44,541 nucleotides of DNA from Lachnospiraceae bacterium (GTDB lineage: Bacteria > Bacillota > Clostridia > Lachnospirales > Lachnospiraceae). The position numbers were made by a program, and so were the translations under genes. Of this stretch, positions 7,190-36,858 are shown in pieces (position 1 is the first letter of the stretch; each line of letters opens with the position of its first letter). Below the pieces are notes generated by a model, which worked only from the letters and a program-made list of their open reading frames with translations, was not told the DNA's origin and searched no databases. The stretch is taken from assembly GCA_022800815.1 (NCBI GenBank), contig JAAWRC010000028.1:1-44541 (forward strand). Reading direction: 5' to 3'.

Positions 7190-8539
<1,350 letters not shown>

Positions 8540-8629
8540 ATTTCATCTGTATGCGTTCTGTTATTTGATACCGCTTATAATACCCATAACAAGGTATTGT
8601 AACTATACACCCCCTATTGTATTTTCAAA

Positions 8630-8661
8630 AAGAAGAGACGATCCTCGGATCGCCTCTTCTT
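8630..8661 (+). terminator. Terminator of gdhA (bidirectional)
   Basis: AAGAAGAGACGATCC and GGATCGCCTCTTCTT form a near-perfect stem, with A-tract and T-tract on either side. It ends gdhA and could also act on the convergent lipoprotein transcript. Confidence 0.9.
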
Positions 8662-8833
8662 TTGTTCCAATTTTTCGTAATTAGAAATAATATCGTTTCT
8701 TTTATATGTTTAACATTTCTTTTTATTGATCCATAGCATAGAATTTCTATGAAAACTTTTTTGTTTCTTCATACGGTTTCTATGCAGCTTCTATGTGATT
8801 TCCTTGTGGTTTCTTTCCGGTTTCTTCCCCTTT

Positions 8834-9562
8834 TCAAAGGGGCTTTGCCTTTTTGGCCTCATCCGGAAGAACAATCGCATCCAGATCATTAAATCCATTA
8901 TATACACAGTTGATCAGGAAAATATCCATGTCTTTCAGCATCCCGAAATCAATGGTGACAGAAAGCGGAAGCTTCGTCTCGTTGTCCTGATAGAGCGTCA
9001 CGACCCCCTTGGCGTTTGCCTCGACGGCGCTGGCGCTGAGTCCCGACGCCTTGATCACCTCTGCCATATTCTTTGCCGTGATCTCGCCCGTAATTACCGT
9101 ACAGGGAATCCCGTTATACTCCGTCTCCTCCCCCAGCTCCCATTCACTCCCCGATGTCAGCAGGATCTTTCTTCCCAAATCCTCCTCCACCGGCTCGTGC
9201 TCATACACGGACCAGGCATTTCGCTCCCATACGTAGGAGTAGGCAAGGTCTTCCTCCTGCCGGATCACGTAAAGCTCCTGGGAAGTCGATCCCTTTCCCC
9301 GGGTGACGGTCAGCACCGTGTGGGAATCCATGGGCTCCTTCATCTGCTCAATGTCCGTCTTCATCGCAACGGCGGCTTCTCCCACGGGAGTCCAGTTCAC
9401 CGCAAGGCTCATCCGCACCGAGGTGACCTCCTCCATGGCCAAAGTCATCTCCTTAATGGCCTCCTCCCCGGGCGTTGCCTTCTTTCCACAACCTGCCGCA
9501 AGAAGCATACTTAAAATCGCGGCACTGCCAAACAAAAGGTGTCTTCTCAATGTCTTCTTCAT
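8834..9562 (-). CDS. Secreted lipoprotein of unknown function
   Basis: A 242-residue lipoprotein precursor. Residues 1-25 form a signal peptide (MKKTLRRHLLFGSAAILSML) ending in the lipobox LAAGC, so the mature protein should begin at that cysteine and be anchored outside the membrane. The mature part is rich in beta-compatible segments (SVRMSLAVNW, SYVWERNAWSVYEH, TLYQDNETKLPLSVTIDFG). It is compatible with the LolA/LppX-like DUF6612 type fold that binds hydrophobic ligands, but I assign this only tentatively. It is a single gene, convergent with gdhA and divergent from the PucR-type regulator. AAAGGGGA precedes the ATG. Confidence 0.75.
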   Translation of the reverse strand: MKKTLRRHLLFGSAAILSMLLAAGCGKKATPGEEAIKEMTLAMEEVTSVRMSLAVNWTPVGEAAVAMKTDIEQMKEPMDSHTVLTVTRGKGSTSQELYVIRQEEDLAYSYVWERNAWSVYEHEPVEEDLGRKILLTSGSEWELGEETEYNGIPCTVITGEITAKNMAEVIKASGLSASAVEANAKGVVTLYQDNETKLPLSVTIDFGMLKDMDIFLINCVYNGFNDLDAIVLPDEAKKAKPL

Positions 9563-9626
9563 AACTCAAGTCCCCTTTCACCTGTTTCCTTTATTTATGT
9601 GTCGTGATTCTTTTCTTCTAGTTAAA

Positions 9627-9635
9627 ATTATAACA
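9627..9635 (-). promoter_or_regulatory. Possible extended -10 promoter of the lipoprotein gene
   Basis: The minus strand reads TGTTATAAT, an extended -10 element, about 65 nt upstream of the lipoprotein start. The matching -35 is poor. Confidence 0.4.
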
Positions 9636-9689
9636 TACTTTTTTCCTTTTGAACACTACCTTTGTGATAATTTTGTATTTATTTTTTTC

Positions 9690-9718
9690 TTGTCTTCTCA
9701 TATATTGTATGTTAAAAT
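9690..9718 (+). promoter_or_regulatory. Promoter of the PucR-type regulator
   Basis: TTGTCT, a 17-nt spacer, then TAAAAT, giving a leader of about 185 nt before the regulator start at 9911. Confidence 0.6.
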
Positions 9719-9754
9719 TGAAAAAAGATTTCTCAAAAAAATTGGAGCAATTTT

Positions 9755-9817
9755 ATGAAAATTTACGATAAAAAACTTTTTGGAAAAACCATCCTCTCTG
9801 TCAGAAGAACGGGCTGA
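9755..9817 (+). CDS. Possible 20-residue leader peptide
   Basis: A short open frame, ATG at 9755 to TGA at 9817, encodes MKIYDKKLFGKTILSVRRTG. It has a GGAG ribosome-binding site 7 nt upstream and lies inside the leader of the regulator mRNA. A downstream stem (TGATGAGTTT with AAACTCGTCA, about 9862-9892) ends just before the regulator ribosome-binding site. This layout would suit translational coupling or attenuation. No family is recognised and it could be chance. Confidence 0.35.
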   Translation: MKIYDKKLFGKTILSVRRTG

Positions 9818-9910
9818 AAAACGCAGAACGAAATGACGAACCATTTTTCAAACCGTGATTGTGATGAGTTTCCCACCCGAAAACTCGTCAATTCGTACAG
9901 GAGACATTCC

Positions 9911-11425
9911 ATGAAATTATCCTCAGATATCTTATTTCAAGATCTGGCAAAACATTTTTCCCTAGCGACGGTGGGCAGGAAAAAGACCACCCTCTCCTTA
10001 GAACCGCCCGTCTTTTATTACGCCGACATGCCTTACGAGGACAACAAGGTTTATATCGGCCGCATCGGGGAGCTTCCTCCCCCTCCGGAGAATATCTCCT
10101 GCCAGATCATCTGCGTGGGCGGCCGCCTGCCTGCCCTCTGGGATGCGGGGAATTCCTGCGCTTTCTCCATCGTCTCCGAAGCGGACCTGCTCCGTGTCTT
10201 CAACATCGTGCAGAACACTTTCCTGCGCTACAGCAAATGGGATTCCGACCTGTACCACCTGTTGAATACCACCGCCAATCTGGAGGAAATGATCCGCTTA
10301 ACCTCCGAGATCCTCGGTAAATCCATTTCTCTGGTCAACAACCAACTGGAGATCGTTGTCCAAGCCATCTCCGACGAGAACCGAAGGCTTCCTCCTTCCT
10401 GGGAACACATGCTCCCCTCCAATGTGCGCACTTGGGCAGACACCCATAAAAAGAATACTTCCTTTCGGGAACCCTTTTTCTTTCTGCTGGAGGGTTATCT
10501 TTCCTATTGTATCAATATCTTTATCCGAGATTCCTACTGGGGCATGATCGCCATCAGCGCGGAGCAGGAGGATCCCACCTCCTGGATCGTCGTCCTTTTT
10601 GACCATTTCTTTGAGGTCTTCCGTCTGGCCCTGTCAAAAAACCTGAACCATGGCCACGGGACCCTGGTCACCCTGCGGTCGGTATTCTCGGATCTTTTGA
10701 ACTGTCTGCCCGTGACTCCCGCCAAGCTGGAGAAGGCCTGCTTAAACAGCGGACACCGTCCCGCCGCCTGGATCTGCGCCGCACTGCGTCCCACCGGTTC
10801 CATGGAACATCTTCCCCCGGAATATTTCTCGAAACAGTTGGAACAGCTCTTTACAAAATCCTACGCCGCTCCTTTTTCCGGCCACATCGCACTCTTTTTT
10901 CCCCTGACACCGGAAGAATTCTGTAGGGATGGGTACGATGGAAATACAAAGGAAGCCCTCTACGAGCTGGAAGAAGGGCTTAATGAATTTGACGTCCGTG
11001 CCGGGATCAGCCTGGTCTACGAGGATATTTTGAAAAGTCATGATTATTTTCGACAGGCCATGATCGCCCTGGAAACTGCGGACAGCATAGAAATCCGGGA
11101 AAAATTCTGCTATTTTGAGGATTACGCCCTCTCCTACGCCCTGAAAAACAGCATCGGGGAACTGAGACCTGAGCTCATGATGCCCTGCGGCCTGGCAAAG
11201 CTTTTGCAGGAATCCAGGGAGGGAGCCGATTACTGGAAAACCCTGGAGTTTTATCTGGATCACGAGATGAACGCCTCCAGGACCGCCCGTGAACTGTTCA
11301 TCCACAGGACCACCCTGCAGAACCGCCTGAGCAGAATCAGCCGCTTTGTGGATCTCGACTCCCCGGAAAGCCGCATGTACCTGAGATACTGCATCTACCT
11401 TTACAGGCTCTTCCAGAATTTTTAA
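9911..11425 (+). CDS. PucR/CdaR-type transcriptional regulator
   Basis: A 504-residue regulator. The C-terminal ~60 residues carry the PucR-type helix-turn-helix: TLEFYLDHEMNASRTAREL then FIHRTTLQNRLSRI, the hallmark arrangement of this family. The middle (about residues 250-380) resembles a GGDEF-like/CdaR sensory segment, and the N-terminal 200 residues resemble the purine-catabolism-regulator input region. The start at 9911 is chosen because AGGAGA lies 6-7 nt upstream. An in-frame ATG at 9833 has no ribosome-binding site. It is divergent from the lipoprotein gene and 170 nt ahead of the 410-aa gene, so it probably activates the downstream three-gene unit in response to its substrate (inference from PucR-family biology). 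Confidence 0.88.
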   Translation: MKLSSDILFQDLAKHFSLATVGRKKTTLSLEPPVFYYADMPYEDNKVYIGRIGELPPPPENISCQIICVGGRLPALWDAGNSCAFSIVSEADLLRVFNIVQNTFLRYSKWDSDLYHLLNTTANLEEMIRLTSEILGKSISLVNNQLEIVVQAISDENRRLPPSWEHMLPSNVRTWADTHKKNTSFREPFFFLLEGYLSYCINIFIRDSYWGMIAISAEQEDPTSWIVVLFDHFFEVFRLALSKNLNHGHGTLVTLRSVFSDLLNCLPVTPAKLEKACLNSGHRPAAWICAALRPTGSMEHLPPEYFSKQLEQLFTKSYAAPFSGHIALFFPLTPEEFCRDGYDGNTKEALYELEEGLNEFDVRAGISLVYEDILKSHDYFRQAMIALETADSIEIREKFCYFEDYALSYALKNSIGELRPELMMPCGLAKLLQESREGADYWKTLEFYLDHEMNASRTARELFIHRTTLQNRLSRISRFVDLDSPESRMYLRYCIYLYRLFQNF

Positions 11426-11553
11426 CTATAAGATATATATTTTCATTCTTTTTGGCATTATTGTCAATTTTTCTCGTTATTTCCCCTATATATTGCAGTA
11501 TTTACAAATATATCTCTCTACTATACCATAAGCGTTAGAGAAGTTGTTCTTCT

Positions 11554-11568
11554 GCATGGGATCCATGC
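11554..11568 (+). promoter_or_regulatory. Short hairpin in the leader of the 410-aa gene
   Basis: GCATGG-GAT-CCATGC forms a compact hairpin about 10 nt upstream of the AAAGGAGAGG ribosome-binding site. The rest of the 11426-11594 gap is AT-rich. It should hold the promoter and a regulator site, but no clean -35/-10 pair is seen, consistent with an activator-dependent promoter. Confidence 0.4.
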
Positions 11569-11594
11569 GGACGCAGGAAAGGAGAGGGTTTTTT

Positions 11595-12827
11595 ATGAGT
11601 AAAAAAATTGATCCACGGATGCCCAAGGAGGTCGGTTCCGGTCTTTATCCCGTGAAATCGCCCTGGGACAAGATGATTTCTTATCACGACGCCGCTCATT
11701 ATGTACAGCGCTATACCAACGTGGTGAGTGCGGCAATCATGCAGGCATTCCGCATGCTGGTCCCGGACTATGCCGAGCGAAGCCAGGCCATGTGCACCAA
11801 CGCTTACAACCGTCTGAGCTATGTCTATCAGATGATCCCCGGCTATCCGGAGATGAATGCGGATGAACTCCACATGCACCCTTTCATGCGGGGCAATTTC
11901 GTGGGCGGCCTCATCGGCGATGCCGGCGACGAGGACCTTCTCATGTGCGGCCGGGTCAATGACTTCGGCACCTACCGGGCGGAGAAGGAGCTGGACGTCT
12001 GTTACTGGGATCTGGTGGGCTCCGAGCTCTGCCGTTCGACCACACAGTCTCTCCAAGCCTGTGCGGACCACGCCGCTAAGCTCCGGCCGGAAGGACCTCA
12101 CATTGAATACCACATGGTGGAAGCCAAGGGCTGCGGCGACCGCCACTGCCGGATCGTGGCGGAATGCCGCAAAAAATTCCCCATGCCGCCCCATGAGCAG
12201 TGGGAGTGCTTCGGCCCGGTGGCCACGGAAAATCAGATCAAGTTTACCAAGGAAGAAGACTGCGTCGACGAATCCATGATGTTTAGGGAGGAGACGGATT
12301 ATCTCTTTTCCAACGGCACCAACATGGAGAAAGACTGGCGTTCCGCCTATCCCATGGTCACCAGATCCTACGGCGCCACCTACATCCTGCCCACTCTGGA
12401 CGACCTGATCCGAGAGGGAAAGCTGACCAACGAACAGGTGGATTACGCCATCCACTGTCTCTGCGAGGCCGCCGGAAAGGCCACCTTCATCGACGATTTT
12501 GCCAAGGAAGGACTCCGGGTATGGCTGGGCGCTCCCCACGAAATCAGCAAGGACGACGGACGGCTCATGGGCGGTTACCTGGAAATGTTCCTGCAGAGCC
12601 TCCATGCAGCTTACGAGATCGAAGCCTTCAACGGGGAAGAGTGCATTTACGTCATTGACCGAGCCGCCCTTGCCAACAACATGCCCAAGATGGTGGATGC
12701 CTATCTCTGGTTCTGGTACGGCATGACCAAGAGCCTGGTCAACGCCCAGTGGTCCCTGTGGGAGGAGGATTCTCCGGAAGGAAAACTCCGGATCAAGATT
12801 GCCAAGAAGGTCGATAAGTTCTGCTGA
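11595..12827 (+). CDS. Unrecognised Cys/Trp-rich 410-residue protein
   Basis: I do not recognise this family with certainty. The protein is soluble-looking and begins MSKKIDPRMPKEVGSG. Residues ~140-190 contain VCYWDLVGSELCRSTTQ and then HIEYHMVEAKGCGDRHCRI, a Cys-x6-Cys-like terminal motif that faintly recalls V4R or ATC-hydrolase-type domains. The C-terminal half is helical and rich in Trp, Met and acidic residues (YLWFWYGMTKSLVNAQW). Start 11595 is chosen by AAAGGAGAGG 7 nt upstream; an earlier in-frame ATG at 11544 lacks one. It lies between a PucR regulator and a GcvT-like gene plus an SDR, so it is probably a dedicated substrate-processing or methyl-transfer partner (inference). Confidence 0.75.
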   Translation: MSKKIDPRMPKEVGSGLYPVKSPWDKMISYHDAAHYVQRYTNVVSAAIMQAFRMLVPDYAERSQAMCTNAYNRLSYVYQMIPGYPEMNADELHMHPFMRGNFVGGLIGDAGDEDLLMCGRVNDFGTYRAEKELDVCYWDLVGSELCRSTTQSLQACADHAAKLRPEGPHIEYHMVEAKGCGDRHCRIVAECRKKFPMPPHEQWECFGPVATENQIKFTKEEDCVDESMMFREETDYLFSNGTNMEKDWRSAYPMVTRSYGATYILPTLDDLIREGKLTNEQVDYAIHCLCEAAGKATFIDDFAKEGLRVWLGAPHEISKDDGRLMGGYLEMFLQSLHAAYEIEAFNGEECIYVIDRAALANNMPKMVDAYLWFWYGMTKSLVNAQWSLWEEDSPEGKLRIKIAKKVDKFC

Positions 12828-12854
12828 TCCCCATCGTCTACCATCGTTTATTAA

Positions 12855-13064
12855 GGTAACTGCGAAACCGCAAAACATGGAAAGGATTCTGACAATTGCA
12901 TCCAGGAAAAGCCCTCTGCGCCATGGAAACGAGACCATGGAAAGCGGGAGGGTCTGGCCCTCCCGTTTTCTGCGCTTATGGGCTCGTTGGAATGGTTGGC
13001 GCTGCAGGCTTTGGATGGGTCAATTGTCAGAATCCACTCGACAATTCCACATTTCGCAATTGCC
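12855..13064. repeat. Large inverted-repeat element (MITE-like or structured leader)
   Basis: The gap between the 410-aa gene and the GcvT-like gene holds nested inverted repeats. GGATTCTGACAATTG (12884-12898) is matched perfectly by CAATTGTCAGAATCC (13021-13035). Further out, GGTAACTGCGAAA (12855-12867) pairs with TTTCGCAATTGCC (13052-13064) with one wobble and one mismatch. Inside lie a GGGAGGG/CCCTCCC hairpin and CCATGG repeats. The ~210-bp palindromic unit looks like a miniature inverted-repeat element or a large RNA domain ahead of the GcvT-like gene. No target-site duplication was identified. Confidence 0.65.
12945..12965 (+). terminator. Terminator-like hairpin inside the inverted-repeat element
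   Basis: CGGGAGGG-TCTGG-CCCTCCCG forms an 8-bp GC stem followed by TTTTCTG. It could partly end transcription after the 410-aa gene or act as an attenuator for the GcvT-like gene. Confidence 0.6.
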
Positions 13065-13098
13065 TACCACCGTTTACTTTTTGAAAGGAGTCGATGAT

Positions 13099-14136
13099 AT
13101 GAATTATCCATATCCGGTTATGTATAAAAATGTCTACAAATATGACGATATGAAACGGGCCGAGCACATGGCGGCCCGGACCACCGTGGGCTGGTATCTG
13201 TGGACCCATCAGCTTGTGGAGGTCACCGGCCCGGACTGCACAGCCTTCCTGGAGTACATCTTCCCGAAAAATATCGGCAATCTCGCTGTCGGGAGAGAGC
13301 GCTACACAACCATGCTGGACGAAGCGGGCGAGATCATTGACGACGTGGTGGTCTTTCGCATGGAGGAAAAGAAATTCTGGATCTCTACCTTGTTCCGCAA
13401 GGATATGTTCCGCTGGTTCGAGTCCCATAAAAGCTCCTTCGACGTGAGCTGGACGGACATCACGCCCCAGTGGGAAATGTATGCCGTGCAGGGGCCAAAA
13501 TCCCTGGACATGGTAAATACAATCATTAAAATTCCTGTTAATAGCATGAAATTCTTTGAGATTCGGGCAAATGAGATCGACGGCGTTCCCGTTTACGTCA
13601 ACCGGGCGGGCTATACCGGCGAAAAGCTGGGCTTTGAGATCTACTTCCCCAAGGCGGAAGCTCCCGCCATGGAAGAAAAGCTCCGGGCACTGGCAAAGAC
13701 CTTTGAGGGAAGAGAAGTCACAGAATTCCAGGTCATGGCCTGGACGCTTCCCTGCGAAGCCGGATTTTTCTACATGCGTGACCTGCGCCACACCAATCCC
13801 TTTGAGGTAGGCCTGGAGGGCGGCATCAACTGGGAGAAGGACTTTATCGGCAAAGAAGCCCTCTTAAAGGTCCGGGAAGAGGGCCCTGCCCGTGAGGTAG
13901 TAGGCTTCACGGTCGCAGACGTGGACATTCACATCAAGGGGCGCAATATGGGAAACGAGGGGGAATTTGTTTACAAAGATGGCGAGTACGTGGGCCGCTG
14001 TATGAAAATCTGCTACAGCTTTGTGAAAGATACCAACAACGGCACCATCATCTGCAGGAAGGACTCCTTAAAGCCCGGCGACAAAGTCACCATGCACGGC
14101 CATGAAGCCGTCATCTGCGCACCAAAGTTTATCTAA
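13099..14136 (+). CDS. GcvT-family aminomethyltransferase/folate-dependent demethylase-like protein
   Basis: A 345-residue protein of the GcvT/DmdA/LigM superfamily, which transfers one-carbon or methyl groups from a substrate to tetrahydrofolate. Visible signatures are MLDEAGEIIDDVVVFRM (residues ~75-90), YAVQGPKSL (~130), the conserved RAGYTGEKLGFEIYFP loop (~170-185), and the C-terminal barrel entry NPFEVGLEGGINWEKDFIGKEAL (~230-255). There is no glycine-cleavage P or H protein nearby, so it is probably not the housekeeping T-protein; a specialised demethylase role is more likely (inference). Start 13099 has AAAGGAG 9 nt upstream. The longer frame from 12799 merely reads through the repeat element. 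It is followed 57 nt on by the SDR gene. Confidence 0.85.
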   Translation: MNYPYPVMYKNVYKYDDMKRAEHMAARTTVGWYLWTHQLVEVTGPDCTAFLEYIFPKNIGNLAVGRERYTTMLDEAGEIIDDVVVFRMEEKKFWISTLFRKDMFRWFESHKSSFDVSWTDITPQWEMYAVQGPKSLDMVNTIIKIPVNSMKFFEIRANEIDGVPVYVNRAGYTGEKLGFEIYFPKAEAPAMEEKLRALAKTFEGREVTEFQVMAWTLPCEAGFFYMRDLRHTNPFEVGLEGGINWEKDFIGKEALLKVREEGPAREVVGFTVADVDIHIKGRNMGNEGEFVYKDGEYVGRCMKICYSFVKDTNNGTIICRKDSLKPGDKVTMHGHEAVICAPKFI

Positions 14137-14193
14137 GGAAACACTGATTCGATCATGGTTTCCTCAATATAAAATTTTAGGAGGATACTAATT

Positions 14194-15102
14194 ATGGGAT
14201 TTGATCCGAAAGCAATTGCCGCATCGATCATGAGGGGATACATCACGGACACGCCCTCCCTCGAGGAAATGCTTTACGTGAAGGGAAAGGTGGCCATCGT
14301 CACCGGCGGGACCTCCGGCCTCGGCTTCTGCACGGCCCAGCGCCTTTTGCAGGGCGGAGCAAAAGTCGTGATCTCCGGCTCCACCGACGAAAAAGGCGAA
14401 AATGGCGTCGCACTCTTAAAGGAAGCCGGGTTTTCCGACATTACCTTCTGCAAAGCCGACCTCTGCAGCGAAGCCGACGTGGAAGCTCTGGTAAAGTTTG
14501 CAGCCGACACCTACGGCTCCGTGGACATTCTCGTCACCTCCGGCGGCGCATGGAGCTTTGCCCACATCTATGACCTGCCGGAAGAAGATTTTATGAAGAC
14601 GGTCAACATCAATCTGGCCGGCGCCTATCGCTGTGCGAAACATGTGAGTAAATATATGATCGAACACGAGGTAAAGGGCAAGATCGTCCTTGTCTCTTCA
14701 AACGTGGCCTACATGCCCCAACCGGTCTTCGGCGGCTACGCCCACTATGCGGCCTCCAAAGGTGGCGTCATCTCCATGACCTACGAGATCGCCAAGGAAT
14801 TGAAACGGTACGGCATCATGGTCAACTCCGTGGCTCCCGGCGGTATGAAGACTCCCGGCGGCCTCACCAACGGCCCGGTCCGCTCCCTGTCCCCGGAAAA
14901 ACAGATGGAGATCGGAAAGGAACTGCGGGTCGCAAAGCTGGACACCGTTCCCACCGCCGATTCCGTCGCCATGGTCATCTATGGCATGTGTACCCGCATG
15001 GCTGACGGCGTCACCGGCGAATGCATCGTCGCAGACAGCGGCATGATGCGCAATATCGTCTCCTACCAGCCGGCCATCGAGGAGTATCCACCGAAGGAAT
15101 AA
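14194..15102 (+). CDS. Short-chain dehydrogenase/reductase (SDR)
   Basis: A 302-residue SDR. After a ~28-residue family-specific lead comes the Rossmann motif VAIVTGGTSGLGFCTAQRL (TGxxxGxG, residues ~31-49). NILVTSGGAW-like VDILVTSGGA (~110) follows, with serine VLVSSNVAY (~167) and the catalytic YAASKGG (Tyr-x3-Lys, ~188-192), then SVAPGGMKTPGG. It should oxidise a hydroxyl or reduce a carbonyl using NAD(P). GGAGG precedes the ATG. It is the last gene of the PucR-controlled unit and likely acts on the product or substrate of the GcvT-like step (inference). A strong terminator follows. Confidence 0.9.
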   Translation: MGFDPKAIAASIMRGYITDTPSLEEMLYVKGKVAIVTGGTSGLGFCTAQRLLQGGAKVVISGSTDEKGENGVALLKEAGFSDITFCKADLCSEADVEALVKFAADTYGSVDILVTSGGAWSFAHIYDLPEEDFMKTVNINLAGAYRCAKHVSKYMIEHEVKGKIVLVSSNVAYMPQPVFGGYAHYAASKGGVISMTYEIAKELKRYGIMVNSVAPGGMKTPGGLTNGPVRSLSPEKQMEIGKELRVAKLDTVPTADSVAMVIYGMCTRMADGVTGECIVADSGMMRNIVSYQPAIEEYPPKE

Positions 15103-15135
15103 ATGCCAGAACCAGTGCGGTTGGAATTTTTTTGC

Positions 15136-15174
15136 CCCGGAATGGTTTACCTGTTTCAGGTATCCCATTCCGGG
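15136..15174 (+). terminator. Terminator after the SDR gene
   Basis: CCCGGAATGG and CCATTCCGGG form a 10-bp stem with an inner ACCTG/CAGGT pairing, followed by ATATTTTATTTT. It closes the catabolic unit. Confidence 0.85.
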
Positions 15175-15229
15175 ATATTTTATTTTATAGTTTTCATTTT
15201 TATTTAAGTTTCTTTTAATCCGCAGATTC

Positions 15230-15258
15230 TTGTATTCGACGAACTTTCATTGTATACT
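15230..15258 (+). promoter_or_regulatory. Promoter of the Rpn-family gene
   Basis: TTGTAT, a 17-nt spacer, then TATACT, about 29 nt upstream of the Rpn-family start codon. Confidence 0.65.
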
Positions 15259-15286
15259 GGTAGCAATGGGAGGATAGAGTTTTTAA

Positions 15287-16262
15287 ATGACAAACCATTT
15301 ACGGGATTTAAAGCCAGACACTGTACTAAAGAATTACTGGCGGGTCAACGAACAGTTTGCCGACTTTTTCAATGCGGCACTTTTTAAGGGAAAAACTGTT
15401 ATCCATCCGGAAGAGTTAGATGGCGAGGATACAGAAGAATCTTCTGTGCTGGAACACAGGGCAGATGCAGAAAGCATCCAAGCTTCGAGGGATAATCTAA
15501 AAATAAGCAAGCGATCGACTTCTCACGGCGTCAGGCTGGTATTGCTTGGCATGGAAGCATCAGGAACATATCCACTATGCGATGCCTTTGCGCATCATGG
15601 GTTACGATTACAGTGCATATAAAAAACAATACGACAAAAATGCAAAGAACGTCCTTTCATCTGGTGGTACGAAAAAAGACGAGTTTCTGTCAAGGATGAA
15701 AAAGACAGACAAATTCATGCCTGTCATTACAATCGTGATCTATTATGGCGAAAAGCCATGGGACGGTGCACGCTCTCTCCATGAAATGCTCAATATTCCG
15801 GAAGAAATGGAAACATTCGTCAATGACTACCCAATGATCCTTGTGGAAGCAAGGGAGAATGACCTGGTCTTCCATAATACAAATAATGCTGATTTTTTCC
15901 ACATGATGAAACTGATTCTTGATCAAAGCATGCCGGAGCAGGAAGCGAAGGCAAAAGTTATAAACTATGCCAGAGAACATGACGTGGATAAAGCGGTCAT
16001 CATGACACTAGCCGGCACAGCCAACTGCAAGATTGATTATTGTGCACTGTCCGGAAGGGAGGATTTCGACATGGGTACGCTGTTTGAAAGGATTGCGAAA
16101 GAAAGCGAAGTAAAGGGTAAAGCCGAGGGCATTATCGAAACCGGATTTGAATGTGGGCTTTCTGAGCATAACATTCTGGAAAAACTACAGAAAAAGTTAA
16201 ACGTAACCTTACAGAAGGCGGAGGAATACCTCAAGCGATTCGAAAAACAGACCATATCCTGA
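15287..16262 (+). pseudogene. Rpn-family recombination-promoting nuclease, frameshifted
   Basis: Two overlapping frames together encode one Rpn/YhgA-like (PD-(D/E)XK) nuclease of about 324 residues. The first frame has the usual opening (VNEQFADFFNAALFKGKTVI) and SHGVRLVLLGME. The second picks up HQEHIHYAMPLRIMGYDYSAYKKQYD and continues through VITIVIYYGEKPWDGARSLHEML to a charged coiled C-terminus. One extra base near 15557 (in ATGGAAGCATCAG) accounts for the shift; removing it gives a continuous frame. GGGAGGA and a promoter precede the start. Rpn proteins are often frameshifted or present in many copies in Lachnospiraceae, so this may be a real loss, a variable gene, or a base-call error. 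Confidence 0.88.
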
Positions 16263-16270
16263 GTCAGACT

Positions 16271-16305
16271 ACAGGAGCCTGAAAGACCTGCTTCCCGGCT
16301 CCTGT
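16271..16305. terminator. Terminator between Rpn gene and adhE (convergent)
   Basis: ACAGGAGCC/GGCTCCTGT, a 9-bp perfect stem with a 17-nt loop, lies between the two convergent genes. The T-rich stretch after it on the plus strand is imperfect. Confidence 0.6.
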
Positions 16306-16350
16306 GATCATGCTCATTTATTTATTTTATCTCTTCTCTTACTTATCTTT

Positions 16351-19038
16351 TTATTTCCCGTAATATGCCTTCAGATAGATTTCCTTCAGTTCCCGCATCA
16401 GAGGATATCTGGGATTGGCCCCGGTACACTGGTCGTCAAAAGCCTGCTCCACCATCTCGTCCAGGGTCGCCAGGAAGTCTTCCTCCTTGATCCCATAGTC
16501 GGCGATGGTCTTCTTGATCCCAATCTTCTCCTTGAGGTCCTCCAATGCCTGAATCAGGTTCTCAAATACCTCCTGATCGTCCTTTCCGGTGATCCCGGCA
16601 AACCGGGCCGCCTCCACGTAGCGGTCAAAGGCATGAGGATATTTGTACTGAGGGAAGGTTCCCATCTTTGCGGGGGCCTCCTCCGCATTATAGCGAATCA
16701 CATAGGTCAGCACCAGGGCGTTGGCCACGCCGTGGGGCAGATGATGGAAGGCGCCCAGCTTGTGAGCCAGGGAATGGTTCACACCCAGGAAGGCATTGGC
16801 GAAGGCAAGACCCGCCATGCAGGAAGCGTCCGCCATCTTCTCCCTGGCCTCGGCGTCGTCCGCACCGAACTCGTAAGCCCTCGGCAGGTAGGTGAAGACG
16901 TTCTTGATGGCCTTGAGGGCCAGGCCGTCCGTGTAGTCGGAAGCCATCACGGACACGTAAGCCTCCAGCGCATGGGTCATCACGTCGATGCCGGAAGCGC
17001 TGGTGAGTCCCTTCGGCATGGTCATCATGTTGTCCGCATCCACGATCGCCATGTTGGGAAGCAGCTCATAATCGGCCAGGGGCCATTTCTTTCCGGTGGT
17101 CTCGTCGGTGATGATGGCAAAGGGCGTGACCTCGGAGCCGGTTCCGGCGGAGGTGGGGATCGCCACAAAGTATGCCTTCTCGCCCATCTTCGGGAAGGTG
17201 TAGACCCTCTTCCGGATATCCATGAAATCCATGGCCATATCCATGAAATCCACCTCCGGATGCTCGTACATCACCCACATGATCTTGGCCGCGTCCATGG
17301 CGGAACCGCCGCCCAAGGCAATGATCGTGTCCGGCTCAAAGCTGCGCATCATCTCCGCACCGGTCTTGGCGCATTTTAACTTGGGATCGGGCTCCACGTC
17401 GTAATAGCAGGTGTAGACGATGCCCATCTCATCCAGCTTATCCGTGATCGGCTTGGTGTAGCCGTTTTTATAAAGGAAGGTATCCGTCACCAGGAACGCC
17501 CTCTTCTTGTGCATGATGGTTCCCAGTTCGTCCAGGGCCACCGGCATGCATCCTCTCTTGAAATAAATTTTTTCCGGCGTCCTGAGCCACAGCATATTCT
17601 CTCTCCTCTCGGCAACGGTCTTAATATTGATCAGCTCTCTCACTCCCACGTTCTCCGACACGGAGTTTCCGCCCCAGGAACCGCAGCCCAGAGTGAGGGA
17701 AGGCGTGAGACGGAAATTGTAGAGATCGCCGATCCCGCCCTGGGAGGAAGGCGTGTTCACCAGGATCCTGCAAGTCTTCATGGCCGCCTGGTGCTTCGCC
17801 ATCTTGTTCCTTCCGTCCTCCGTGGCCGCATTGACATAGAGCACGGAAGTATGGCCGTAGCCGCCGTCGGCGACCAGGCGCTCCGCCTTTGCCACGGCGT
17901 CGTCGAAATTCTTCGCCTTGTACATAGCGAGAACGGGGGAAAGCTTCTCATGGGCAAAGGGCTCAGAAACCTCCACCGAATCCACCTCACCGATGAGGAT
18001 CTTGACATCCGCCGGCACTTGGATCCCGGCCAACTCCGCAATCACGGGGGCCGGCTGTCCGACGATCTTGGCGTTGACCGTTCCCGCCTCCGTCAGAATG
18101 ATGCCCCGCAGTTTATTCATCTCTTCCTCGCTCAGGAAGTAGCATTTCCTCTTCTTAAATTCCGCATGGACTTCTTTGTAAACCTTCTCCAGCACGATCA
18201 CCGACTGCTCCGACGCACAGATCATTCCGTTGTCAAAGGTCTTGGAGTGAATGACGGAATTCACCGCCATCAGAATGTCCGCCGTGTCGTCGATGATGGC
18301 GGGCGTGTTCCCGGGGCCCACGCCCAGGGCGGGCTTTCCGGAAGAATATGCCGCCTTCACCATGCCGGGGCCGCCCGTCGCCAGGATGATGTCCGCTCCC
18401 TTCATGACCTCGTTGGTCAGCTCCAGGGAAGGCACGTCGATCCAGGAGATGATCCCCTCCGGCGCTCCTGCCTTCACCGCCGCATCCAAAACCACCTTCG
18501 CCGCCGCAATGGTGCATGCCTTTGCACGGGGATGAGGGGAAATGATAATGGCATTTCTCGTCTTCAGGGCGATCAAAGTCTTGAAAATTGCCGTGGAAGT
18601 CGGATTCGTGGTCGGAATGACCGCCGCCACCAGTCCGATGGGTTCGGCGATCCGCTTATATCCAAACGCCTTGTCTTCCTCGATCACACCGCAGGTCTTT
18701 TCATGTTTAAATTTATTATATATGTACTCTGCCGCATAGTGGTTCTTGATCACCTTGTCTTCCACTACGCCCATGCCGGTCTCCTCCACCGCCATCTTCG
18801 CAAGGGGAATCCGCTGATGGTTGGCCGCCATGGCCGCCTCATAAAAAATCTTATCGACCTGTTCCTGGGTAAAGGTGGCAAAAATCTTCTGGGCCGCCCG
18901 CATCTCTTCCATTCTTGCCAGAAGCTTGTCGACACTATCGATGATTCCATCCTGCACTCCGGCTGTCTTTGTTGTTTCCTCCACAGCAATCTTTGTCTCT
19001 TCCACCGATGCTGCTTTTGCTGTTTCTTTTTTTGCCAT
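16351..19038 (-). CDS. adhE: Bifunctional acetaldehyde-CoA/alcohol dehydrogenase
   Basis: An 895-residue AdhE that reduces acetyl-CoA to acetaldehyde and then ethanol, consuming two NADH, and normally assembles into spirosomes. The N-terminal ALDH-like half shows IPTTNPTSTAIFKTLIALKTRN, GVGPGNTPAIIDDTAD and the catalytic cysteine in TFDNGMICASEQS. The C-terminal iron-dependent ADH half has IALGGGSAMDAAK, PTSAGTGSEVTPFA and the metal-binding histidines in HSLAHKLGAFHHLPHG. Compared with typical AdhE (~870 residues) it has a hydrophilic N-terminal extension of about 30 residues containing a repeated VEET motif. GAGGAAAAC precedes the ATG. It is a single gene with a consensus promoter and a Rex operator. 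Confidence 0.97.
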   Translation of the reverse strand: MAKKETAKAASVEETKIAVEETTKTAGVQDGIIDSVDKLLARMEEMRAAQKIFATFTQEQVDKIFYEAAMAANHQRIPLAKMAVEETGMGVVEDKVIKNHYAAEYIYNKFKHEKTCGVIEEDKAFGYKRIAEPIGLVAAVIPTTNPTSTAIFKTLIALKTRNAIIISPHPRAKACTIAAAKVVLDAAVKAGAPEGIISWIDVPSLELTNEVMKGADIILATGGPGMVKAAYSSGKPALGVGPGNTPAIIDDTADILMAVNSVIHSKTFDNGMICASEQSVIVLEKVYKEVHAEFKKRKCYFLSEEEMNKLRGIILTEAGTVNAKIVGQPAPVIAELAGIQVPADVKILIGEVDSVEVSEPFAHEKLSPVLAMYKAKNFDDAVAKAERLVADGGYGHTSVLYVNAATEDGRNKMAKHQAAMKTCRILVNTPSSQGGIGDLYNFRLTPSLTLGCGSWGGNSVSENVGVRELINIKTVAERRENMLWLRTPEKIYFKRGCMPVALDELGTIMHKKRAFLVTDTFLYKNGYTKPITDKLDEMGIVYTCYYDVEPDPKLKCAKTGAEMMRSFEPDTIIALGGGSAMDAAKIMWVMYEHPEVDFMDMAMDFMDIRKRVYTFPKMGEKAYFVAIPTSAGTGSEVTPFAIITDETTGKKWPLADYELLPNMAIVDADNMMTMPKGLTSASGIDVMTHALEAYVSVMASDYTDGLALKAIKNVFTYLPRAYEFGADDAEAREKMADASCMAGLAFANAFLGVNHSLAHKLGAFHHLPHGVANALVLTYVIRYNAEEAPAKMGTFPQYKYPHAFDRYVEAARFAGITGKDDQEVFENLIQALEDLKEKIGIKKTIADYGIKEEDFLATLDEMVEQAFDDQCTGANPRYPLMRELKEIYLKAYYGK

Positions 19039-27152: not shown

Positions 27153-27455
27153 ATGAAGGATCCCATGAGCATGAGGGAATTCGGAGAAATTTTTGTAAAG
27201 GATCTGATCACTTTTGAAAATCGTGTCGTGGAGATCAACGACGACACCGTACATATCGAGATGCATTACTGCCCCCTGCTCTCGGCATGGAAAAAGCTTG
27301 GCTTCTCCGACGAGAACTGCGCCCTTTTCTGTGACATTGCCATGGAGGGGGACCGGAAGTTTGCCCGGGATATGGATGCGGAATTCTCCCTGACCAAAAA
27401 GATTGCGGAGGGCGACGACTGTTGTGATTTAAAGTTCACCAGGATCAATAAATAA
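27153..27455 (+). pseudogene. L-2-amino-thiazoline-4-carboxylic acid hydrolase-like protein, N-terminally truncated
   Basis: This 100-codon frame (ATG 27153, AAAGGA upstream) reads VVEINDDTVHIEMHYCPLLSAWKKLGFSDENCALFCDIAMEGDRKF, then KKIAEGDDCCDLKF. The CP...LG...C..CDIA and final GDDCCDLKF pattern is that of the ATC-hydrolase-like family (PF14196), widespread in Lachnospiraceae. Family members are usually longer at the N-terminus, and stop codons block extension upstream in this frame, so I treat it as truncated. It might still be a short expressed protein. It is 25 nt upstream of the UPF0303 remnant. Confidence 0.7.
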
Positions 27456-35466: not shown

Positions 35467-36858
35467 ATGCTTCAGACGATACAGAAACATTGGGACGAGA
35501 TTTTGCAGCTGATACGGTACAATCACAATGTGTCTCTGGCCAGTTATGATACCTGGCTTATGCATTTACACGTAAAATCGGTGGACGAAAACGCCCACAT
35601 GGTTCATATTGCCTTCGAAAATCCGCTGTATTACAACTCGGAATTCGTCATCAAGCATGTCACGAAAAATTATTCCAGTTTATTTCAGATCTATATCGAG
35701 CAGGTAACCGGATTTGTCTGCGAAGTTGACATTTATATGGAAAAAAAAGAAGAAAAAGCGGAAGTCTCCAAACCGAAAAAGACGATACGACGGAAAGCGG
35801 AATCGGAGGTTTCTTCCCCGAACAGCAATCTGAATCCCAAGTATACCTTTGATAATTTTGTGGTCGGCTCCAGCAACGAATTCGCCCATGCGACCTGCCT
35901 GGCCATTGCGGAAGCTCCGGCTACCAAATATAATCCTTTTTTTATCTACGGAGGCGCCGGTCTCGGTAAAACCCACCTGATGCACTCCATCGGCAATTTC
36001 ATCATCAAGAACGATCCTTCCCAAAAGGTCATGTACGTGACCTCGGAACGGTTTACCAATGAGCTTATTGACTCCATCCGGAGCAAGTCGGCCACCTCCG
36101 TCCATTACTTTCGGGAGAAATACCGTAACAACGATGTTCTTCTGATTGACGACATTCAGTTCATTATAGGGAAGGAGAGTACCCAGGAGGAGATTTTCCA
36201 CACCTTCAACGCCCTCCATGAGGCCGGAAAACAGATTGTGTTTTCCAGCGACCGCCCTCCCAGGGACTTTGAGACCGCCCTGGAGGACAGGCTTCTTTCC
36301 CGATTCAAGGCGGGTCCCATTGCGGACATCAAACCGCCCAACTACGAAACCAGGATGGCCATTCTCCGGAAAAAAGAGGAGATCGAGGGATACAACATCG
36401 ACAACGAAGTGATCCATTATATTGCAAATAACATTACCTCCAATATTCGTGAGCTGGAGGGGGCCCTCACCAAGGTTGTCGCCCTGGGAAGGCTCAACAA
36501 AAAAGAGGTGGACCTTCCTCTGGCGGAGGAGGCCCTGAAAGACCTGATCTCCCCGAACCACGCCCAGGTGGTTACCCCTGAAGTGATCCTTGGCATGGTG
36601 GCGGACCACTATGGCTGCAAAACCTCCGACATTCTCTCCAACAAACGGTTAAAGGAGATCATCATCCCCAGGCACATGGTCATGTACCTGTGCCGCCAGA
36701 TGACGGATTCCACCCTCCAGTCCATCGGTAAATTCCTGGGAGGGAGGGATCATTCCACGGTAAAAAGCGGGATCAACAACATCACCCAGCTTATGGAAAA
36801 TGACAGGGAGCTTAAGAATACGGTGGAAGTTCTGAAAAAGAAGATCAGCTTCTCGTAA
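35467..36858 (+). CDS. dnaA: Chromosomal replication initiator DnaA
   Basis: A 463-residue AAA+ initiator. Domain I is residues ~1-85 and domain II a Lys/Glu-rich linker (~90-125). Domain III holds Walker A FFIYGGAGLGKTHLMHSIGN (~155-172), Walker B VLLIDDIQFI and ERFTNELI. Domain IV carries the DNA-binding signature GRDHSTVKSGI near residue ~430. ATP-DnaA binds the boxes on both sides of the gene and opens the origin. The ATG is at 35467 with a modest AAGGCGGGG site. It is followed by the second box cluster and then dnaN. Confidence 0.98.
   Translation: MLQTIQKHWDEILQLIRYNHNVSLASYDTWLMHLHVKSVDENAHMVHIAFENPLYYNSEFVIKHVTKNYSSLFQIYIEQVTGFVCEVDIYMEKKEEKAEVSKPKKTIRRKAESEVSSPNSNLNPKYTFDNFVVGSSNEFAHATCLAIAEAPATKYNPFFIYGGAGLGKTHLMHSIGNFIIKNDPSQKVMYVTSERFTNELIDSIRSKSATSVHYFREKYRNNDVLLIDDIQFIIGKESTQEEIFHTFNALHEAGKQIVFSSDRPPRDFETALEDRLLSRFKAGPIADIKPPNYETRMAILRKKEEIEGYNIDNEVIHYIANNITSNIRELEGALTKVVALGRLNKKEVDLPLAEEALKDLISPNHAQVVTPEVILGMVADHYGCKTSDILSNKRLKEIIIPRHMVMYLCRQMTDSTLQSIGKFLGGRDHSTVKSGINNITQLMENDRELKNTVEVLKKKISFS

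Follow-up and report, generated by a model that had tools for sequence, protein, structure and literature searches.

An undescribed 410-residue protein paired with a GcvT-like protein: a candidate two-component one-carbon transferase in a Lachnospiraceae bacterium

Introduction

The T-protein of glycine cleavage (GcvT) acts on a one-carbon (C1) unit that is held by a partner protein. What, then, is the role of a GcvT-like protein whose genome encodes no such partner? We examined this question in a 44,541-nt contig of a Lachnospiraceae bacterium (GCA_022800815.1, JAAWRC010000028.1; the whole contig is called the window), in which a PucR-type regulator gene is followed by the gene of a 410-amino-acid (aa) protein, ORF410, a GcvT-like gene and a short-chain dehydrogenase/reductase (SDR) gene. 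A preliminary description of the locus had located these four genes correctly (Table 1) and proposed a PucR-controlled demethylation/oxidation pathway with the 410-aa protein as partner of the GcvT-like one. On the evidence below we lean towards regarding ORF410 and the GcvT-like protein as a two-component tetrahydrofolate (THF)-dependent C1 transferase of an anaerobic gut-type bacterium. No title or abstract opening in the open-licence literature was found to describe the pair or ORF410, which may have been published elsewhere. The host genome, G000, comprises 3.4 Mb in 75 contigs (97% complete), the window being contig C24; L, G and C numbers denote loci, genomes and contigs, and locus counts include the window.

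Results

ORF410 and the GcvT-like gene are constant neighbours

An intact ORF410 was present in 30 distinct loci: the window, L005-L015, L016, L033-L045 and L074-L077 (L005 and L046 are one record, counted once, and the broken copy L017 was left out). These loci are not independent, 12 of the 30 coming from the window's own genus, and 28 of them are uncut, L014 and L015 being truncated by contig ends; the flank covered was 4 to 20 kb per locus and 44.5 kb in the window. Down to ~32-33% identity, ORF410 adjoined a GcvT-like gene in all 30 loci, with exceptions in form only: a contig end truncates the GcvT frame of L014, it is short in L038 and the gene order is reversed in L034. An SDR gene was close by in 27 of the 28 uncut loci, being absent from L039 and on the opposite strand in L035. 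The suggestion that the three genes co-occur, with the 410-aa protein as partner of the GcvT-like protein, is thus borne out by their gene neighbourhoods.

The association also held at the level of whole genomes. The ORF410 profile matched 10 of 98 related genomes (three genera, with eight genomes from one of them) and exactly the same 10 gave strong scores with the GcvT-like profile (489-599 bits), weaker scores being due to a cut copy in G004 (184 bits), a remnant in G000 (58 bits) and the remaining GcvT genes (168 bits at most). The GcvT-like proteins found beside ORF410 form a clade of their own, and the pairwise distances of the two proteins were tightly correlated (r = 0.97 over 20 loci; 0/9999 permutations). 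ORF410 is rare: phylum-wide it was found in 3 of 398 genomes and within the family in 7 of 397, the host genome being included in both sets, and in 1 of 82 genomes of the class of G442, namely G442 itself. It was not found in the phages, plasmids and viral contigs searched. The pair is a genuine and conserved variant of GcvT-type genes, comprising two proteins, for which C1 transfer is the best reading.

The GcvT-like protein stands apart from glycine cleavage

The host genome carries two GCV_T genes in all, each beside an ORF410. It gave no match to GCV_H (PF01597) or GDC-P (PF02347), for which 13 and 10 of 14 control genomes, respectively, were positive, in agreement with the earlier statement that glycine-cleavage partners are missing. 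Only one of the 30 loci, L074, has such a GcvH gene. There (8101-18165) the module lies directly beside a gcvT-gcvH-gcvPA-gcvPB operon, in which T and H were Pfam-checked and the other two genes are, from their sequences by eye, presumably gcvPA and gcvPB. The T-protein of this operon and the window's GcvT-like protein share 31% identity, and both kinds of T-protein therefore coexist in L074. With no H- or P-protein found in the host genome and a true gcv operon standing separately in L074, we rejected a role in glycine cleavage.

The GCV_T domain (PF01571) of the GcvT-like protein scored 152.9 bits against a curated cut-off of 25.6 (E 1.3e-44; the query included 10 codons ahead of the start at 13099), and its C-terminal barrel match fell below cut-off (12.4 of 25.9 bits). 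NCBIfam models were all matched below their cut-offs: T-protein NF001567 was best (155.3 bits, cut-off 300), followed by trimethylamine N-oxide (TMAO) demethylase (120.4 of 1100), T-protein TIGR00528 (114.9 of 235.85), the DmdA equivalog (112.9 of 410), DesA (60.8 of 800) and LigM (46.1 of 580). The protein, earlier labelled GcvT/DmdA/LigM-like, is by its scores nearer to the glycine-cleavage T-protein than to DmdA or LigM, all of these scores being far below cut-off. The nearest solved relative was 1woo, recorded as an aminomethyltransferase (2.5e-37) and presumably from T. maritima. Y69, D82 and E180 were invariant in a 12-row alignment, in which D82 and E180 align with an Asp and a Glu of 1woo; the aligned Tyr, Asp and Glu of 1woo we take to be folate-site residues of the T-protein. 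One Asp and one Glu are also among the residues predicted to bind THF in SesA (PMC5547118, excerpt).

One relative links the pair to folate metabolism

In L012 a run of genes on the same strand comprises ORF410, the GcvT-like gene, SDR, a major facilitator superfamily (MFS) gene, a second SDR, formate-THF ligase (3.8e-278), an FTCD_C cyclohydrolase, FolD and a formate/nitrite transporter (FNT), and it spans the steps from methylene-THF to exported formate. These C1 genes therefore suggest that a methylene-level unit is oxidised to formate with a gain of ATP. As to the proposed demethylation/oxidation pathway, its THF-dependent one-carbon aspect gains support from this run, found in one of the 30 loci; its methyl group does not, the methylene level being at least as likely.

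On these grounds we propose the following sequence of steps. ORF410, with two predicted domains of H-NOX/TRAPP/V4R fold and a conserved Cys/Glu/His/Cys cluster, would bind the substrate, for which a small compound from the diet is most likely, and would present or activate its C1 unit. The GcvT-like subunit would then pass this unit to THF, most likely yielding 5,10-methylene-THF, although both the methylene level and the direction of transfer are conjectural, and the SDR would oxidise or reduce the substrate before or after the transfer. Methylene-THF would join the folate pool. The relative that carries L012 would oxidise it to formate by way of FolD, the cyclohydrolase and formate-THF ligase, with a gain of ATP, and formate would leave through the FNT channel. 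The fold of ORF410 in this scheme is a predicted one, and its physical complex with the GcvT-like protein is one that we infer.

Alternatively, the enzyme could work at the methyl level as DmdA and LigM do: a methyl ether, sulfonium or ammonium compound would donate its methyl group intact to form 5-methyl-THF, with ORF410 as a substrate-binding helper and the SDR acting on the demethylated product. Other genes near the clusters would suit such a pathway for O-methylated sugars or inositols. A zinc alcohol dehydrogenase is encoded in four of the 30 loci (L034, L074, L076 and, farther off, L007), that of L076 having scyllo-inosose 3-dehydrogenase as its nearest model, below cut-off, and thus being of a polyol/sugar-acid type; FGGY kinases occur in L007 and L038. 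Furthermore, DesA, LigM and DmdA are precisely such demethylases among the GcvT relatives outside glycine cleavage (PMC5547118, excerpt). Against this, the GcvT-like protein reaches just 113 of 410 bits with DmdA and 46 of 580 with LigM while being nearest to the T-protein, and no methylenetetrahydrofolate reductase (MTHFR) was recognised among the C1 genes in the 15.3 kb of L012. DmdA and LigM, moreover, are not known to need an ORF410-like partner. We therefore hold transfer of an intact methyl group to be rather unlikely.

Among the remaining neighbours, MFS genes occur in five of the 30 loci (L012, L034, L039, L074 and L075). Separately, a ~71-aa orphan protein is encoded near the cluster in nine of the 30 (L033, L037, L038, L040, L041, L042, L044, L076 and L077); it had no Pfam or NCBIfam match and no counterpart in the window.

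ORF410 is predicted to contain two domains of H-NOX/TRAPP/V4R type

The 410-aa protein had earlier been called unplaceable, and so it proved by sequence comparison: the window protein had no Pfam or NCBIfam match at E≤1, five distant members had no NCBIfam match, and no PDB sequence was matched significantly (best E 0.5 with the single sequence, none with a profile). Its description as Cys/Trp-rich is fair but mild, with 14 Cys (3.4%) and 9 Trp (2.2%). Across 25 aligned members, several of them nearly identical, 46 positions were invariant, including C136, C146, E176, D182, H184 and C185. A first AlphaFold2 model made with 13 sequences was poor (predicted local distance difference test, pLDDT, 61); with 25 sequences the model reached a pLDDT of 77.8 and a predicted template modelling score (pTM) of 0.83, residues 1-17, 102-116 and 236-245 being unreliable. 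The predicted secondary structure consists of helices followed by strand-strand-helix-strand-strand, a pattern that is present twice; at the sequence level, an internal duplication was undetectable (N versus C half, E 0.8). Among the best 50 of 220 Foldseek matches, the natural ones were nearly all H-NOX, TRAPP/Bet3, YslB and phenol-sensing PoxR/MopR domains, with probabilities mostly of 0.85-1.00.

We compared ORF410 with a V4R profile drawn from proteins of 199 genomes (18 sequences used out of 30 loci returned). The N-domain profile scored 25.0, above 200 of 200 column permutations (mean 12.9, maximum 20.2), the reverse giving 14.4. In the aligned block, C146 and G-D-x-x-C185 fall on conserved V4R positions, and of the DmpR zinc ligands Cys151, Glu172, Cys177 and Cys185 (PMC7264223, excerpt), all but Cys177 seem to be matched in ORF410. 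The correspondence is partial, and a metal site in ORF410 is therefore putative. The modelled H-NOX/TRAPP/V4R-type fold hints at substrate binding and is no proof of it.

By eye, the Cys...Cys...A.G(D)..C motif of ORF410 also resembles that of the ATC hydrolases (ATC_hydrolase, PF14196), which themselves scored 26.8 against the V4R profile (reached by 0/200 permutations). We rejected membership of ORF410 in this family: there was no Pfam match, and 46 of 200 permutations reached the N-domain score. The motif bears on a further possibility, that ORF410 alone is the catalyst, as a metal-dependent hydrolase or lyase, and that the GcvT-like protein only traps released formaldehyde on THF. TMAO demethylase is believed to use its GcvT domain in this way, and the TMAO demethylase model was the second-best for the GcvT-like protein; besides, the 46 invariant positions of ORF410 amount to an enzyme-like conservation. 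With the likeness to ATC hydrolases so poorly supported by permutation, and knowing of no formaldehyde-releasing hydrolase of such a fold, we consider this arrangement improbable.

As a separate observation, a 467-aa open frame runs antisense to ORF410 (window 11535-12938, minus strand); comparable long antisense frames occur at other loci, and it is probably an effect of codon bias.

Evidence that weighs against a C1 transferase

Several results speak against the two-component C1 transferase proposed above. In a similarity search with the four C1 proteins of L012, C1 genes like these turned up in only one of the 30 loci. The Arg-Asp...Arg signature of T-proteins is lost from the GcvT-like protein, which reads AWTLP where the canonical T-protein of L074 has RDTLR, and its THF binding is uncertain because of this replacement. 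Further points concern ORF410. Among the best 50 of 220 Foldseek matches, the best E was 0.006, none was below 0.001, and de novo designed proteins were included. The hhalign probability of the N-domain with V4R was only 8.8% (E 0.004), the C-domain scored at chance level against the V4R profile (24 of 200 permutations reached its score), and the third zinc ligand of DmpR, Cys177 (PMC7264223, excerpt), has no constant counterpart in ORF410, where position 180 is Cys or Ala.

A further reading is a unit in which no C1 transfer occurs: the GcvT-like protein would be a folate-binding accessory of the YgfZ kind, as the loss of the signature arginines might indicate, and the cluster an SDR pathway with ORF410 as its ligand sensor, a function that V4R domains can have (DmpR, PMC7264223, excerpt). 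Such a unit is very improbable in our view, given that the catalytic-type Asp is invariant in all 12 rows, that no other domain was found in ORF410 by Pfam, and that the tight 1:1 gene pairing and the C1 genes of L012 would be left unexplained. As for what the preliminary description had named as speaking against its own proposal, namely a known unrelated family for the 410-aa protein, lack of co-occurrence of the genes, or P- and H-proteins elsewhere, our analysis found none of the three.

Comparison with characterised systems

The GcvT-like protein shares with the glycine cleavage T-protein the folate-binding domain and the catalytic-type Asp, Tyr and Glu. It differs in having ORF410 as partner, in that no H- or P-protein was found in the genome, in the loss of RDTLR and in a barrel match below cut-off. 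LigM, DesA and DmdA are single-component enzymes; they resemble the window protein as GcvT-superfamily THF demethylases without glycine cleavage partners and differ in working at the methyl level, and the window protein scores far below their cut-offs. LigM yields 5-methyl-THF and acts together with MTHFR in a bacterium that lacks glycine cleavage (PMC12585457). SesA and BrdA are GcvT-related, THF-dependent demethylenases that cleave methylenedioxy rings; BrdA requires THF, to which it transfers the methylene group, and the Asp and Glu predicted to contact THF in SesA have possible counterparts in the GcvT-like protein (PMC5547118, excerpt). Unlike the window protein, BrdA homologues carry a LigM-type annotation and, at 429-476 aa, are larger, and purified BrdA works with THF as a single protein; the excerpt of PMC5547118 mentions no ORF410-like partner for SesA or BrdA. 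Going by these descriptions, the pair may act in a similar manner to such enzymes, but its GcvT-like protein falls short of the curated cut-offs of those represented by a model (LigM, DesA, DmdA, TMAO demethylase and GcvT). ORF410 for its part resembles, in its predicted fold, the V4R domains of DmpR, PoxR and MopR and the H-NOX/TRAPP proteins, from which it differs in its two predicted domains in tandem with no other domain found, in the inconstancy of the third zinc-ligand Cys and in the absence of a V4R Pfam match. The constant ORF410 partner is what sets this pair apart from known GcvT-superfamily THF enzymes.

In its fullest form, our proposal would make ORF410 a substrate-activating metalloprotein of tandem V4R/H-NOX fold that stands in for the H-protein. 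It would pass carbon at the formaldehyde level, taken from a plant or diet compound (e.g. from a methylenedioxy or methoxy group), to its T-protein-like partner, the two forming an oxygen- and corrinoid-independent demethyl(en)ase that spreads among Clostridia of the gut and allows some hosts to gain ATP via formate. This whole is possible, although we regard it as doubtful. The hosts of the characterised THF enzymes are aerobes, and gut anaerobes are usually thought to demethylate by means of corrinoid systems. GcvT-superfamily THF demethylases and demethylenases are known as single enzymes of marine and soil bacteria, five characterised ones being described in PMC5547118 (excerpt). If the proposal were true, the pair would represent a second anaerobic route of demethylation and would give a function to an unnamed family outside Pfam and NCBIfam.

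The regulator is less conserved than the enzymes

The regulator carries a C-terminal HTH_30 domain (53.9 bits, cut-off 27), and PF07905, presumably the PucR N-terminal domain, was not among its Pfam matches at E≤1. A PucR-class gene stood beside the cluster in 27 of the 30 loci, counting the L005 remnant, the partial gene of L038 and the L007 copy cut by a contig end; none was found at L033, L035 and L075, with just ~1 kb covered upstream in L033. The ORF410 of the window is 82-92% identical to those of L006, L008, L009, L010 and L011, whereas its PucR shares 22-28% identity with the 15 compared from other clusters. Throughout, PucRs have changed more quickly than ORF410: those of L006, L008, L009 and L010 share 43-59% identity, and those of the window and L011 fall outside this group (23-27%). 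In the sister genome (L005), only the C-terminal part of PucR is left. The enzymes have therefore been kept while the regulators changed or decayed, and the earlier designation of the unit as PucR-controlled is doubtful. The regulator is not wholly independent of the cluster either, as follows from the correlation of its pairwise distances (r = 0.40 over 14 loci; 15/9999 permutations).

Of 29 upstream regions checked, two contained the palindrome TTGGCATTATTGTCAA, that of the window and, with one mismatch, that of L005, while the other 27 lacked it; an operator common to the clusters was accordingly rejected. The promoter consensus gave 7 matches versus 4.8 (standard deviation 2.1) in shuffles, a weak signal.

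Additional copies and mobility of the cluster

The host genome contains a second complete set on contig C67 (SDR, ORF410, GcvT-like gene and a divergent PucR), whose ORF410 is 57-59% identical, and a decayed third set on contig C10 (L017, 209-2746), with ORF410 in two frames, a GcvT stretch of 36-42 residues and an MFS gene in pieces. At the corresponding position of the sister genome G004 (L039), the frames of this third set are unbroken. DUF1846, CTP synthase and FtsH genes adjoin both copies, and the first two of these genes also lie near the cluster of L009. ORF410 occurs at 82-98% identity in assemblies titled Lachnotalea, Eubacteriales, Blautia, Lachnospiraceae, Merdimonas, Clostridia and Clostridiales, and among the clustered loci the genes flanking the window's cluster (up to 24 kb) recur in L005 only. 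L010 has recombinase genes next to it, and the run of L012 is preceded by conjugation and Toprim genes. Exchange between genomes is likely to explain the distribution of the cluster, whose acquired or accessory character, suspected earlier, agrees with this spread, the unshared flanks and the recombinase and conjugation genes.

Organisation of the window

Table 1. Features of the ORF410 cluster in the window
Feature	Position	Strand	Basis
PucR-type regulator	9833..11425	+	Pfam HTH_30 PF13556, 1.6e-14; without PucR N-terminal domain match
Candidate operator, palindrome TTGGCATTATTGTCAA	11452..11467	.	Single window match at ≤1 mismatch; pattern taken from same site
Possible ORF410 promoter	11501..11529	+	Consensus match only
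ORF410, undescribed family, 410 aa	11595..12827	+	Predicted tandem H-NOX/TRAPP/V4R-fold domains, ~25-200 and 258-410
Dispersed palindromic repeat (MITE-like) inside operon	12854..13066	.	271-bp gap; many genomic copies
GcvT-like protein, 345 aa, probably THF-dependent one-carbon transferase	13099..14136	+	Pfam GCV_T 1.3e-44
SDR dehydrogenase, glucose-dehydrogenase-like, 302 aa	14194..15102	+	Pfam adh_short 8.2e-48; nearest solved: glucose 1-dehydrogenases
Terminator hairpin	15136..15174	+	16 pairs, -28.4 kcal/mol, z -7.4, U-rich sequence after

The hairpin that closes the cluster deserves its earlier description as a strong terminator (Table 1). Between ORF410 and the GcvT-like gene lies a gap of 271 bp, compared with 12-41 bp in 11 other loci. 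It contains a palindromic, hairpin-forming repeat of ~212 bp, absent from the preliminary description, that resembles a miniature inverted-repeat transposable element (MITE) and is missing from the sister locus L005. In the host genome the repeat had at least 55 matches, with 40 of 97 candidates scored; merged by hand, these correspond to ~42 distinct places, and a partial match of 133 bp (74%) was found in L061, of the same genus. The RNA fold of the gap reached -112 kcal/mol (z -7.3), and Rfam gave no match at gathering scores in window 9400-15700. In the lineage of the window, the repeat may uncouple expression of the GcvT-like and SDR genes from that of ORF410.

With regard to replication, dnaA lies at 35467-36858 on the plus strand (Pfam), ~20 kb to the right of the cluster, the GC skew changes sign near 36 kb, and the genes left of dnaA appear from their sequences to be parAB, rsmG, mnmG, mnmE, yidC and rnpA, ParB alone being Pfam-checked. 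The replication origin is thus probably located ~20 kb to the right of the cluster, which is on the plus strand, points at dnaA and therefore runs head-on to the fork, as had been proposed.

Two further observations concern other parts of the window. Past the terminator, at 15287-16262, there are overlapping reading frames that are possibly a broken gene, the second one with a weak match to a YhgA-like transposase (PF04754, 6.7e-4, below cut-off). At 27153-27452 there is a reading frame of the ATC_hydrolase family (PF14196) that matches the C-terminal half of the model only; this family occurs in 16 of 41 related genomes, several of which have more than one copy.

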